Source: Rubripirellula tenax (GTDB taxonomy: Bacteria > Planctomycetota > Planctomycetia > Pirellulales > Pirellulaceae). From it: DNA of 64,000 nt. This document shows positions 15,480-18,490 of the stretch, piece after piece (position 1 is the stretch's first letter; every line of letters starts with the position of its first letter). Both the position numbers and the translations under genes were made by a program. Below the pieces are notes generated by a model. The model did no database searches, was not told the origin of the DNA, and saw nothing but the letters and a program-made list of their open reading frames with translations. The DNA lies in contig NZ_SJPW01000004.1 of the NCBI RefSeq assembly GCF_007860125.1, positions 744,838 to 808,837 of the forward strand, in the 5' to 3' direction.

Positions 15480-17171
15480 TTACAGTTCGACGGATTCGAC
15501 TTCGCGGACGAAGCGGGATGCGTCGTTTTCTAGGAACGATGAGACGACGTTGAACACGGCGTCACTGAAGCCGCCGATGTTTAGGATGTCGTCTCGCTCT
15601 GGTGCCTGGCTGGTTCCGTAGGGTTGGATGTCCAAGCAGACTAGCTTTGGATCGGCGATGCCGTGTCCGCGCTGGGTCTTCTTGAACTTCTCCCACTGCG
15701 TCATCACTCCGGTTGAACCGTTTTGACCGTAGCCACTGTAACCATTGTTGAAGTGGGGACGTCCCGAGGTGATCCAGCTTTCGTTGTCGCTGACCAGCAC
15801 GATGCCAGCAAAGGCTTGCTTTGCGTAACGCGTGTTGGCTTCGACAAATGGCAACGAGCAATCCGTTCCTCCGCCACCGTACTTCGACAAGCGTGCTGAC
15901 AGTGACAGGATCGAATCGCTTGGATCGACCTGAGCCTTGTAAGCCTGCGTATCGAATGGAATCACGACGCTGTCTGGGTTGCGACGCAGGATCGCTGCTG
16001 CGAACAGTGCCGCAACATCGACGCATCGCATCTTCGACGTTCCGCCCCTTGGACCATTGTTTGGGGCACGGTTACCCGTGACTGGGCATCCCATCGAACC
16101 TGACGTGTCGAGTCCGATGATGACTGGTCCAGGCAGCGTTGGTACGTTTCCGCACGCGATCTCGGCAGCGTCATGCAACGCCGTCTTGATCTTGCTTGGA
16201 ACCTCGTCCGATGCGTTCATGTAAGCCGCCAGGAACTGGTACGGGAACTGACGGCTGCGAGCGATCGCGTCGCGGTCAGCCAGTTGGCCGGCCACGTAGT
16301 GGATCATCGCGTTGTCGGTACCCGCGAATCCAAGGATTCCAGGCTTCTTGAATGCGTCGTGACGCAATAGCGTGTTGAGGTTCATACGCAGTGCTTGCGG
16401 TCCCATCTGTCGAGCAATTGCCTTCCAGACGAGCGGACCCTTGGCCGCATCGGCCAGCAAGTCCCAACGAACCTGCAGGTCGCCCGCGATCAACGTCTGA
16501 GCCTCGGCCGTGTCGGCGCCACGGTACGCGATCAGTGACTGAACCGTTACCGGCAAGTCGGTTTCCGTTGCCGGAGCCCACTTGTCGACGGGCTTGTCGG
16601 TCAACCACCCGAAAAGTGCTCGACGCGCGTCATCCTTTGGCGTTGGACGTGCCATTCGCAAGATGTCTCGCAGGCTTGGATCGTTTCCGATCGAAGCTGA
16701 GAGCAACTTGCCAACAGACGCGTCGTTCAGCCAACGTTGGAACGCACGTTGCAGCGAAGACGACAGACCCTTGCGACCGAACTGTCCTGAACGAGTCATT
16801 TGGAAAACAGTGCGCAGAACGCGGCCGTTGTCGGCGACTCGGTCGAAGACTTGGTGCATGAGCTTGGTGTCTCGCGTCGACAGTACGACCAGCAACGCTG
16901 CCGGCATGTCCTTCATGTAAGCACGCTCACGTGAGTAGACGGCCAGCTTTGCCAGGAACTCGTTGTCGTCGATCTCGTCGATCAGCTTTCGCATTGCGTC
17001 AAGTTGGTTTTGCGCGGACGCGTAGTAGACGTTGCCGAACGTGCCGGTCGCCGCCATTTGGGCGAGCGCATGCTTCGCTGACAGCTTGTACGCTGGGCCG
17101 CCTGCTTCGTTGACGACGGTTGCTCGTGGCAGGATGCTAGTGATGCTTTGGAATAGAGACTTGTTGGCCAT
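15480..17171 (-). CDS. rsr: TROVE-domain Ro60/Rsr-like RNA-binding protein
   Basis: The start at 17171 is set by a perfect AGGAGG seven bases upstream (564 residues); a longer frame runs into an RNA gene. Residues ~15-330 are the HEAT-like TROVE ring and the C-terminal half is a von Willebrand A domain with an intact MIDAS (LDTSGSM). Ro proteins bind Y RNAs and misfolded or fragmentary RNAs in the ring cavity, and in bacteria work with Y RNAs and exonucleases such as PNPase. Five Y-RNA-like genes lie directly upstream on the same strand, starting 56 bases away, and the tRNA array follows, which strongly supports a Ro-type role. Some large mycobacteriophages with many tRNA genes also encode Ro homologues. 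Confidence 0.93.
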   Translation of the reverse strand: MANKSLFQSITSILPRATVVNEAGGPAYKLSAKHALAQMAATGTFGNVYYASAQNQLDAMRKLIDEIDDNEFLAKLAVYSRERAYMKDMPAALLVVLSTRDTKLMHQVFDRVADNGRVLRTVFQMTRSGQFGRKGLSSSLQRAFQRWLNDASVGKLLSASIGNDPSLRDILRMARPTPKDDARRALFGWLTDKPVDKWAPATETDLPVTVQSLIAYRGADTAEAQTLIAGDLQVRWDLLADAAKGPLVWKAIARQMGPQALRMNLNTLLRHDAFKKPGILGFAGTDNAMIHYVAGQLADRDAIARSRQFPYQFLAAYMNASDEVPSKIKTALHDAAEIACGNVPTLPGPVIIGLDTSGSMGCPVTGNRAPNNGPRGGTSKMRCVDVAALFAAAILRRNPDSVVIPFDTQAYKAQVDPSDSILSLSARLSKYGGGGTDCSLPFVEANTRYAKQAFAGIVLVSDNESWITSGRPHFNNGYSGYGQNGSTGVMTQWEKFKKTQRGHGIADPKLVCLDIQPYGTSQAPERDDILNIGGFSDAVFNVVSSFLENDASRFVREVESVEL

Positions 17172-17226
17172 GTTTGACCTCCTACGAAAAAGCAGCGGAA
17201 CCAACACTGAATGGTCCCACGAAGTG

Positions 17227-17352
17227 AAAAAGCACTCGACGAATTTGTGGACAGAGATCTCGTCCGTTAGTTTCAAAGCGGACGAGGCGGGACTTGAACC
17301 CGCTGAACCTTTCGGTCGTTATCCATGTACTCCGTTCCGGCAGTCGAGTGTG
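17227..17352 (-). ncRNA. yrl1: Y RNA-like gene 1 (T arm and acceptor only)
   Basis: The ends pair perfectly (CACTCGAC with GTCGAGTG) and a T5 run follows, as in a terminated small RNA. Inside is the module shared by all five copies: TGCC, then CGGAG pairing with CTCTG. Between the strands sits a T arm (GCGGG/CCCGC with loop TTCAAGT) and an acceptor-like helix CTCGTCC/GGACGAG closed by a loop. The D arm is absent. The order (T arm before acceptor 5' strand) is a permuted tRNA, as in YrlA RNAs. It is the copy nearest the Ro-like gene, about 56 bases away. Confidence 0.75.
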
Positions 17353-17455
17353 TCTTGGTGCCGCAATGCATCCGCCCCACGAAGTTAGGGCAGAGTGCAA
17401 TGCGGCATTTGGTTTGATTGACAAAAGGTAGTGATGCACGGTGTTCGCATTGAAG

Positions 17456-17612
17456 AAAAACGCGATCGACGAAGTTGTGACCAGAGAGTTTTACGGTGCT
17501 CTACCACTGAGCTACGGCGCTGCGTTCTTGCGAATGCAGCCAGCGCCGGTGGGACTCGAACCCACGACACCCGGCTCCTGAAGCATGTACTCCGAATCGG
17601 CAGTCGATCGTG
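17456..17612 (-). ncRNA. yrl2: YrlA-like Y RNA gene 2 with permuted tRNA domain
   Basis: Terminal helix CGATCGAC/GTCGATCG is followed by CGCG and a T5 run. The shared module (TGCC, CGGAG/CTCTG, AACTTC) is complete. The tRNA-like part has T arm GTGGG/CCCAC with loop TTCGAGT, acceptor CGGCGCT pairing with AGCGCCG, a 20-nt loop joining the acceptor strands, and a canonical D arm (GCTC...GAGC). The anticodon arm is replaced by the Y-RNA stem. This is the best preserved tRNA mimic of the set. RNase P and tRNA-modifying enzymes might recognise it (known for YrlA; inferred here). Confidence 0.82.
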
Positions 17613-17620
17613 TGCGCTTC

Positions 17621-17992
17621 CTATTTCGTTTTCTTCTTCGCAGCCTTTCCCATTTGTTTCCAAAGGGAACGGCCGTTGTCTCGGTCGAGCCGGACAAGTT
17701 GTTGCTGTCGCGTGTCGAAAGCGATCAGGTTTCCCTTGGGTCGCTTCGCGTAAACGAACGGCAAGCAAACGGCGACGACTTTGTGCGGTTCGCCGGCTGC
17801 GCGAGGCAAGTAGCGAAGTCGAACGAGTTCGTCGATGGGTTGCGAGATTCCTGAGCAGTCCCATAAGTAGGACGGAAGCTCGATGATCTCGCTGAGGATG
17901 GTGACATAGTCACCTTTGGCGATGTCTTCGCCTGCGATCCTGGCCGCGACGGTGGTCACGGTTTTTGATCGCGTTTCGGTTGTGGTTTTCAT
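17621..17992 (-). CDS. hypothetical protein, 123 aa
   Basis: I do not recognise this 123-residue protein. It starts with a Thr/Lys-rich segment, has a central hydrophobic stretch (GDYVTILSEIIELPSYLWD) and ends in a basic KAAKKKTK tail that could contact nucleic acid. It lies between Y RNA-like genes 2 and 3 on the same strand, 8 bases upstream of copy 2, so it shares their transcript. That placement suggests a function tied to the Ro/Y RNA cluster, but nothing in the sequence proves it. Confidence 0.6.
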   Translation of the reverse strand: MKTTTETRSKTVTTVAARIAGEDIAKGDYVTILSEIIELPSYLWDCSGISQPIDELVRLRYLPRAAGEPHKVVAVCLPFVYAKRPKGNLIAFDTRQQQLVRLDRDNGRSLWKQMGKAAKKKTK

Positions 17993-18129
17993 GGTTCCGC
18001 AATCGTTGAAAGAATAGGTTGTGCATGTGTGTTCTCTGTTGGGCTGCGAGTTGGATCACTTGCGGCCGGTCGTAATGGCGAAACAGGAATGTAAAACACG
18101 CATAGTTCAGTCTCTCGAGACGATTGTGG

Positions 18130-18268
18130 AAAACGCGACTAACGAAGTTGGTTAATCAGACAGTTCGATGCTCTACCAACTGAGCTACGAAGCGAACGCG
18201 AGGTTCACTTCGGTGGGACTCGAACCCACGACAGTCGAGGTGATGTAGTCCGATTGGGCAGTCAATCG
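18130..18268 (-). ncRNA. yrl3: YrlA-like Y RNA gene 3 with permuted tRNA domain
   Basis: The terminal helix CGATTGAC/GTTAGTCG pairs along its length with two G-U wobbles, so the two strands changed while staying paired. Inside, AATCGGAC pairs with GTCTGATT over eight positions. The tRNA-like part has T arm GTGGG/CCCAC, acceptor CGAAGTG/CGCTTCG (one wobble) and D arm GCTC...GAGC. A T4 run follows the 3' strand. The order of arms is the permuted one seen in copy 2. Confidence 0.8.
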
Positions 18269-18273
18269 TGTAT

Positions 18274-18410
18274 TGGTGGCGACGAAGTTTTGGTCAGACG
18301 TTATTTACTGAGCTACATGCGAACACTTGTCCGCTGGCGGGGCTCGAACCCGCGACCTCGCCGCATTGCGACGCGCTCTCACCATGTAGTCCGAACCGGC
18401 AGTCGCCGTG
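18274..18410 (-). ncRNA. yrl4: YrlA-like Y RNA gene 4, decayed tRNA domain
   Basis: Terminal helix GGCGAC/GTCGCC, then TGCC and GGT-T-CGGAC pairing with GTCTG-ACC, and AACTTC on the 3' strand. The T arm (GCGGG/CCCGC, loop TTCGAGC) is canonical. The acceptor pairs only over about five positions and the D arm is decayed (GCTCAGTAAATAACG). The 3' end is only a few bases from the 5' strand of copy 3, with no terminator between, so the two are probably cut from one transcript. Confidence 0.7.
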
Positions 18411-18419
18411 GTTTGGTTG

Positions 18420-18490
18420 AAGACGGATCGACGAAGGGACAACTCAGATGGTTCACATTTGCAATGTAATCCGAGTCTGCAGTCGATCAG
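18420..18490 (-). ncRNA. yrl5: minimal Y RNA-like gene 5 without tRNA domain
   Basis: This 70-nt element keeps only the shared stem: GATCGAC/GTCGATC, then TGCA, then ACTCGGAT pairing with ATCTGAGT, and CTTC on the 3' strand. In place of the tRNA-like part it has a tiny hairpin (ACATT/AATGT). It starts a few bases after tRNA-Cys. It is valuable because it shows that the shared stem is a module of its own. Confidence 0.65.

Follow-up and report, generated by a model that had tools for sequence, protein, structure and literature searches.

Why would a bacterium keep five different Y RNAs in front of a single Ro gene? The question is raised by a 64,000-nucleotide (nt) stretch of the planctomycete Rubripirellula tenax (assembly GCF_007860125.1, contig NZ_SJPW01000004.1, positions 744,838 to 808,837), hereafter the window, which lies on contig 4 of an 8.0 Mb genome and whose own positions are used below. 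Its minus strand encodes a Ro60-type protein of 563 amino acids (aa) with TROVE and vWA domains (15480..17171), preceded on the same strand by five RNA genes, here named Y1 to Y5 in order of transcription. A preliminary description of the locus had read the arrangement as a Ro system with an expanded, diversified Y RNA set. Our analysis supports the expanded Ro system and agrees with diversification as a reading; what had been overlooked is that the RNAs carry distinct heads that appear to mimic tRNA and, in relatives, 23S rRNA.

One handle shared by the Y RNAs of the window and its relatives

The Ro protein passes the Pfam cut-offs for TROVE (27.9 bits, cut-off 23) and vWA_Ro60 (46.6 bits, cut-off 27.7), and in the Protein Data Bank (PDB) it matches Deinococcus Rsr (2nvo, E 4.1e-17) and human RO60 (9nen, E 3.3e-11). 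Its likely ATG is at 17171, and the longest frame opens at 17276. A strict scan for the shared design of the RNAs (5' half, 3' half and terminal helix) on both strands of the window returned exactly five sites, all on the minus strand and the same five as in the preliminary description: Y1 (18426..18488), Y2 (18278..18407), Y3 (18136..18268), Y4 (17463..17610) and Y5 (17233..17350). A looser scan added one chance-like match at 38035-38111. As expected of bacterial Y RNAs in general, the five lie beside a Ro gene, on its strand, and have a conserved terminal stem. Their common design, or handle, consists of the terminal helix, a TGC internal loop, a CGGAN/N'TCTG helix and a 3' TTCG segment. The internal loop had been given as TGCC, which holds for Y2 to Y5 while Y1 reads TGCA; likewise, the AACTTC segment is found in Y2 to Y4 and is replaced by CCCTTC in Y1 and AAATTC in Y5. 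The N-N' pair runs T-A, C-G, C-G, G-C, G-C from Y1 to Y5, with the letters previously reported in a copy list that runs opposite to transcription, and the two wobbles noticed in the terminal helix of the third copy are both G-T pairs of Y3.

A permissive Rfam search, which included the proposed comparison with the YrlA model, aligned Y3 (47.7 bits, E 3.5e-9) and Y4 (46.5 bits, E 7.4e-9) with YrlA, gave a weak YrlA match for Y2 (20.1 bits, E 0.31) and a YrlB match for Y1 (28.7 bits, E 0.0027), and returned no Y-family match for Y5. Because these scores fall below gathering (69 bits for YrlA, RF02553; 97 bits for YrlB, RF02565), the five RNAs are invisible to a standard Rfam search, and for the same reason we do not file Y3 and Y4 as YrlA members. 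None of the five has the standard cloverleaf order or is called as a tRNA by ARAGORN.

To place the handle among relatives, we used a Ro profile built from ten proteins, which gave 80 named loci, the best of 518, comprising 70 planctomycete loci (L062-L131, about 65 genomes) and ten at 42-45% identity, nine of them from other phyla; a second scan added 41 viral contigs. Among these best 80 loci, the closest named relatives by Ro protein are Pirellulales planctomycetes. After a first loose motif scan was dropped as too noisy, a loose handle scan of 2.33 Mb (142 partly overlapping sequences) gave 346 matches against 12 on reversed sequences, and 308 handle RNAs, 290 of them distinct, remain at a score of at least 7. 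The 70 planctomycete loci hold 224 handle RNAs at that score, all on the Ro strand; 60 of the 70 have at least one, with up to nine per locus, and ten were counted in the congener locus L029 and, at a lower score, in L062. Of the ten loci lacking them, five have fewer than 100 bases before Ro (L077, L096, L109, L116, L128) and L072 has fewer than 800.

The handle also covaries. Among 272 non-identical RNAs whose TCTG-like strand could be recognised, and in whose selection the N-N' letters played no part, N-N' is a standard pair in 242, against a mean of 138 and a maximum of 161 over 2000 shuffles (G-C 152, C-G 46, T-A 17, A-T 14, G-T 10, T-G 3, non-pairs 30). Pairing of the terminal helix is not counted as independent evidence because that helix was used in selection. 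The covariation seen in five copies is strong across relatives, and the RNAs have homologues beside other Ro genes, so that two outcomes which the preliminary description had named as refuting it (no significant covariation, no homologues near other TROVE genes) did not occur.

Outside the planctomycetes the picture is sparser. Five of the nine Ro loci from other phyla have any YrlA, with zero to two each at the Rfam cut-off; "expanded" is therefore a fair term for the set described here, although this cut-off would equally overlook RNAs that diverge as far as the five of the window. The handle scan of the same nine loci gave no match. Within the phylum, Ro is carried by 18 of 60 near relatives (own genome counted; among them five of 21 congeners, one a partial match) and by 43 of 294 genomes sampled phylum-wide (35 of them at E <1e-180); given the 18 of 60 and the 43 of 294, we regard its distribution as patchy. 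On the viral side, one IMG/VR contig (L143, 6719-8871) combines a Ro gene with five to six Y-like RNAs, of which some bear tRNA-like heads; PHROG 850 is matched by the Ro proteins of both this contig and the window. In L029, an extra YrlB-like match (6986-7058, 30.7 bits) that the handle scan missed lies within the tRNA array.

Likenesses of the heads to tRNA and rRNA

The heads of Y3 and Y4 run in the order T arm, acceptor 3' strand, closing loop, acceptor 5' strand, TA and D arm. Judged by sequence, each is, as in YrlA, a tRNA whose anticodon has been cut open and whose natural ends have been closed. The permuted order of YrlA (T arm, closed acceptor stem, TA, D arm) was found in Y3 and Y4 and not in Y1, Y2 or Y5; the acceptor helix has 10 base pairs (bp) in Y3 and 8 bp in Y4. 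In the wider collection of 140 T-arm heads, a downstream D arm of 4 bp is present in 66, and 54 of these 66 form an acceptor helix of at least 6 bp, where swapped partners gave a mean of 10.9 and a maximum of 22 in 500 runs. The TA before the D arm, present in 66 of 66, was part of head selection and is not evidence.

The head of Y2 follows another order (GAGC, capped anticodon stem, variable loop, T arm, acceptor-like stem, TAGCTC), with a D stem of GAGC/GCTC and an acceptor-like stem of 6 bp, and resembles a tRNA whose opening lies in the D loop. Ten RNAs of this kind were collected, Y2 itself and nine from seven further loci, a set that leaves out L143. In these ten, 98.1% of the proposed pairs form, where sliding leaves no more than 53.3%; three of six pairs in the anticodon stem are doubly changed, and uninterrupted pairing in the acceptor-like stems ranges from 3 to 9 pairs. 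Y5 combines the handle with a GAAA-loop hairpin, a T arm and an 8-bp acceptor-like stem; it has no D arm, and the handle stands where that arm would be. Its computed fold agrees with this arrangement (z -3.85).

Y1, the shortest of the five, carries a single hairpin with a 5-bp stem and the loop TTGCAAA that we interpret as anticodon-arm-like, the minimum-energy fold showing a 3-nt loop instead. Anticodon loops of tRNAs have U at position 33 (U33) and a purine at position 37 (R37). A hairpin of at least 4 bp with a 7-nt loop directly follows the handle in 48 of 75 distinct short RNAs, two of these hairpins lying outside Ro-Y arrays (38035 of the window, and L047). U33 and R37 occur together in 30 of the 48, or 21 of 38 distinct loops, where shuffling gave 11.5% on average and 36% at most; one of the 30 is a T loop (L084). 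The loop is identical to a real anticodon loop, taken from 777 tRNAs of the same loci, in 18 of the 48 (11 of 38 distinct; shuffled mean 1.1%, maximum 18%); binomial figures for the anticodon loops ignore kinship. The anticodon letters differ (GUU, GCU, GUG, UGA, CUU, CGA and others), with U33 and A37 or G37 constant. At the position of Y1, relatives carry TTGCAAA (L028), CTTGAAA (L031) and CTGTTAA (L067).

A further type of head, absent from the window, resembles 23S rRNA. The sequence of helices 69-70 occurs in one scanned Y head each at 22 of the 70 loci, and the longest exact run shared with a relative's 23S measures 28 nt (found in L071 and also within L102). In most of these heads helix 69 is opened at its loop, with ACGGTC after the 5' handle and GGCCGT before the 3' handle; the loop is retained in four of 24 (L071, L101, L102, L121) and partly in L107. 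Of the named pairs, 94.2% form across 24 aligned heads, where sliding leaves no more than 45.6%; pairing in the permuted helix 69 is 91.9%, and three of its six pairs show double changes, for example G-C to A-U. The alignment leaves out L033 and L073 (one contig, long insert), L095 (long insert) and the pattern-only finds L032, L046/L109, L098 and L124. We considered a homing-endonuclease target as the origin of the 23S stretch and rejected it because the permuted stem covaries. Helix 69 of the host 23S was recovered from nine of 24 genomes queried and, in addition, from G011 and G048; in nine of these 11 genomes the head shares the host letter at a variable helix-69 position (G in L029, L062, L068 and L121; C in L039, L075, L098, L112 and L124), an agreement that kinship could partly explain. 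Since a loose 23S-core pattern performed below its control (93 matches against 173 in reversed sequence), we restricted the analysis to near-exact cores lying within Y RNAs.

Two short heads (L074, 9129, and L130, 9143) carry the stretches AGTACGAGAGGAA and TGTACGAGAGGAA, which come near the sarcin-ricin loop in sequence, and both RNAs sit directly before a 23S-type Y RNA. We treat these two candidates only as a lead.

The tRNA array and the neighbouring genes

On the minus strand the order is 27 tRNA genes (23393 to 18494), Y1, Y2, Y3, a 123-aa open reading frame (ORF), Y4, a hairpin, Y5 and Ro. The tRNA array (18494..23393; ARAGORN, with Rfam tRNA matches) ends in tRNA-Cys(gca) at 18494-18565, directly upstream of Y1. 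No sigma-70-like promoter was found in 17100-19400, and a terminator-like stem (17220-17195) lies between Y5 and the Ro ATG. Among the 49 planctomycete loci longer than 11 kb, Y RNAs are present in 45 and Y RNAs together with at least five tRNAs in 23, and all 483 tRNAs found share the Ro strand. A gene for an IVP (23S rRNA intervening-sequence) family protein lies between array tRNA genes on the plus strand (18617-18976).

The ORF between Y3 and Y4 (17621..17992, minus strand) encodes a conserved protein with 186 homologues, the named ones among the 120 matches listed being planctomycete. It is present in 17 of 94 loci, and in 12 of the 17 it lies at most 50 nt upstream of a Y RNA. Pfam gives no match for it. 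An AlphaFold model built from 18 sequences reached a mean pLDDT of 74 and matched no PDB entry significantly (best E 0.19); its weak matches include ribosomal L2-like and KOW/SH3-like folds. The hairpin between Y4 and Y5 (17358..17410, minus strand) has an AACTTCG stretch, is very stable (fold z -7.26) and is not a Y RNA by the scan.

Downstream of Ro, the minus strand at 3818-14560 holds defence-like genes (Pfam and PADLOC scans) for a DruE-like helicase (3818-9025; PADLOC DruE3, 659.7 bits), a NERD/UvrD helicase (12009-13841), a DUF2726 protein and a protein of 990 aa that has no match. Elsewhere in the window, a type II hammerhead ribozyme match (52469-52530, plus strand) scores 39.1 bits, slightly over its gathering score of 37. 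On contig 9 of the same genome (L045, 8598-10876), a second array of 17 tRNAs in similar order is followed by an N-terminal fragment of Ro, and the scan found no Y RNAs there. RtcB was not found beside Ro; within this genome it is encoded only on contigs 3 and 8.

Probable uses of the heads and competing explanations

Y3 and Y4 share with YrlA the position beside Ro, the terminal stem and a T arm, closed acceptor stem and D arm in the same permuted order. Unlike YrlA, the RNAs of the window fall below the gathering score and stand several side by side, and the model lacks the other heads found here (D-loop-opened tRNA, anticodon arm and, in relatives, 23S). Y1 is similarly close to YrlB in being short, with a single-hairpin head, and in aligning over the full model; however, the gathering score of 97 is far off, and Y1-type heads carry anticodon-like 7-nt loops. 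The Salmonella rsr-yrlBA-rtcBA RNA repair operon, as described in passages of PMC7790460, likewise joins a Ro gene to Y RNAs, two in number; here there are five or more, a tRNA array stands in place of the repair genes, and RtcB is encoded on other contigs. The Ro protein is also homologous to Rsr of the Deinococcus RYPER complex (Rsr-Y RNA-PNPase), in which there is one tether, whereas many heads are found here. A literature survey of top-ranked titles, their abstract openings and some passages, with the main bacterial Y RNA papers outside it, returned no planctomycete, 23S-like or anticodon-arm-like Y RNAs, no sets of five to ten and no D-loop-opened heads.

Overall, we consider it somewhat probable that the locus is an expanded Ro/Y system in which one handle carries exchangeable mimics of translation RNAs, probably recruiting or titrating the proteins that recognise them. 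The mimicry itself has good support from sequence. The Y RNAs would be transcribed from the array and Ro would bind their common handle. The full tRNA heads are circular permutations, the RNA being opened at a hairpin loop, joined there to the handle and closed at its natural ends, and most 23S heads of relatives follow the same rule, with helix 69 opened at its loop. Such heads may attract modifying, processing, decay or cleaving enzymes whose recognition targets are the tRNA elbow, the anticodon arm or helices 69-71 of 23S rRNA; these proteins would be brought to Ro or held there, so that a cell could refit one Ro particle by exchanging heads. Recruitment or titration seems the likeliest use by analogy with two known cases: in passages of PMC8394870 and PMC7790460, the tRNA-like domain of YrlA is modified by DusA and TruB, and a Y RNA ties Rsr to PNPase in Deinococcus.

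Several observations weigh against this interpretation. More than half of the T-arm heads (74 of 140) have no D arm as tested, 27 of the 75 short RNAs lack a 7-nt-loop hairpin, 18 of the 48 such hairpins lack U33 and R37, and the loop of Y1 matches none of the 777 tRNA loops. In the D-loop-opened heads the D stem is invariant, and their count of doubly changed pairs was reached by 20 of 500 shuffles. Taken alone, Y2 (z -0.91) and Y4 (z -0.90) show no folding advantage over their shuffles, and for Y2 the minimum-energy fold differs from the tRNA-like one. Among the 23S heads, those of L071 and L125 differ from the host helix-69 base. No 16S-like heads rose above shuffles against the single 16S tested, that of relative G041, which was used because the 16S pattern matched nothing in the own genome; in the same test one head outside the 23S type, a T-arm head (L102, 9481), scored 33, slightly over the shuffled maximum of 31. 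Seventeen heads form a class resembling nothing tested, some of them chance matches or two RNAs read as one. Finally, L099, L120, L122 and L129 have at least 5 kb before Ro and no Y RNA at the score used.

Other uses of the heads must be weighed against the same data. If they served as decoys for RNA-cleaving toxins and anticodon nucleases, or as sensors of them, they would offer the attacked sites (anticodon loops, the helix 70 region, the sarcin-ricin loop, D and T arms) and so protect the real RNAs or signal damage through Ro. Passages of PMC5408214 list as toxin targets 23S helix/loop 70 (MazF-mt3, -mt6), the sarcin-ricin loop (VapC20), the initiator-tRNA anticodon stem-loop (VapC) and the tRNA D and anticodon loops (MazF-mt9), and the heads include anticodon loops, 23S helices 69-71 and two sarcin-ricin-like loops. 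Salmonella YrlA has been suggested as a competitive inhibitor of an anticodon nuclease (a passage of PMC7790460), and defence-like genes lie downstream in the window. However, the UUCCU cut by MazF-mt3 and -mt6 in helix 70 is missing from its place in all 24 aligned 23S heads, the anticodon-opened and D-opened heads have no normal anticodon loop, and the neighbour proteins scanned (seven by Pfam, six by PADLOC) are not such toxins, with no toxin gene tied to the locus. We hold the decoy explanation to be rather unlikely. Its broadest form, in which a Ro repertoire of permuted heads displays enzyme-attacked sites (anticodon arms, the tRNA elbow, 23S helices 69-71 and the sarcin-ricin loop) as a shield for decoy and damage sensing, with counterparts on phages that carry Ro and Y RNAs, is an unlikely idea that we put forward as speculation.

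The heads might also merely aid processing, modification and stability through the tRNA machinery, the Y RNAs gating the Ro ring whatever head they bear. The array directly behind same-strand tRNA genes and the modification of YrlA by tRNA enzymes (passages of PMC8394870) fit this, but it leaves unexplained the 23S heads, the varied anticodon loops and the upkeep of several different heads side by side, and it seems improbable to us. That the Y RNAs are remains of decayed tRNA or rRNA genes which collected where a tRNA array ends is scarcely credible: tRNA arrays do break, given that the second array of this genome ends in a truncated Ro gene, but the covariation in handles and heads contradicts decay, and the permuted order recurs with the same joints and with 346 handle matches against 12 in the control.

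Recruitment or titration by exchangeable heads is thus the explanation we prefer. In the literature surveyed, Y RNAs perform a single trick, the imitation of tRNA; here one Ro and one handle are combined with several heads, and many of them follow one rule, the opening of a loop and the joining of the handle there, which applies to 23S rRNA as well as to tRNA. The planctomycete loci may thereby offer a natural set of variants for asking what the heads of Y RNAs do and which proteins are the partners of Ro, in bacteria and in animals.

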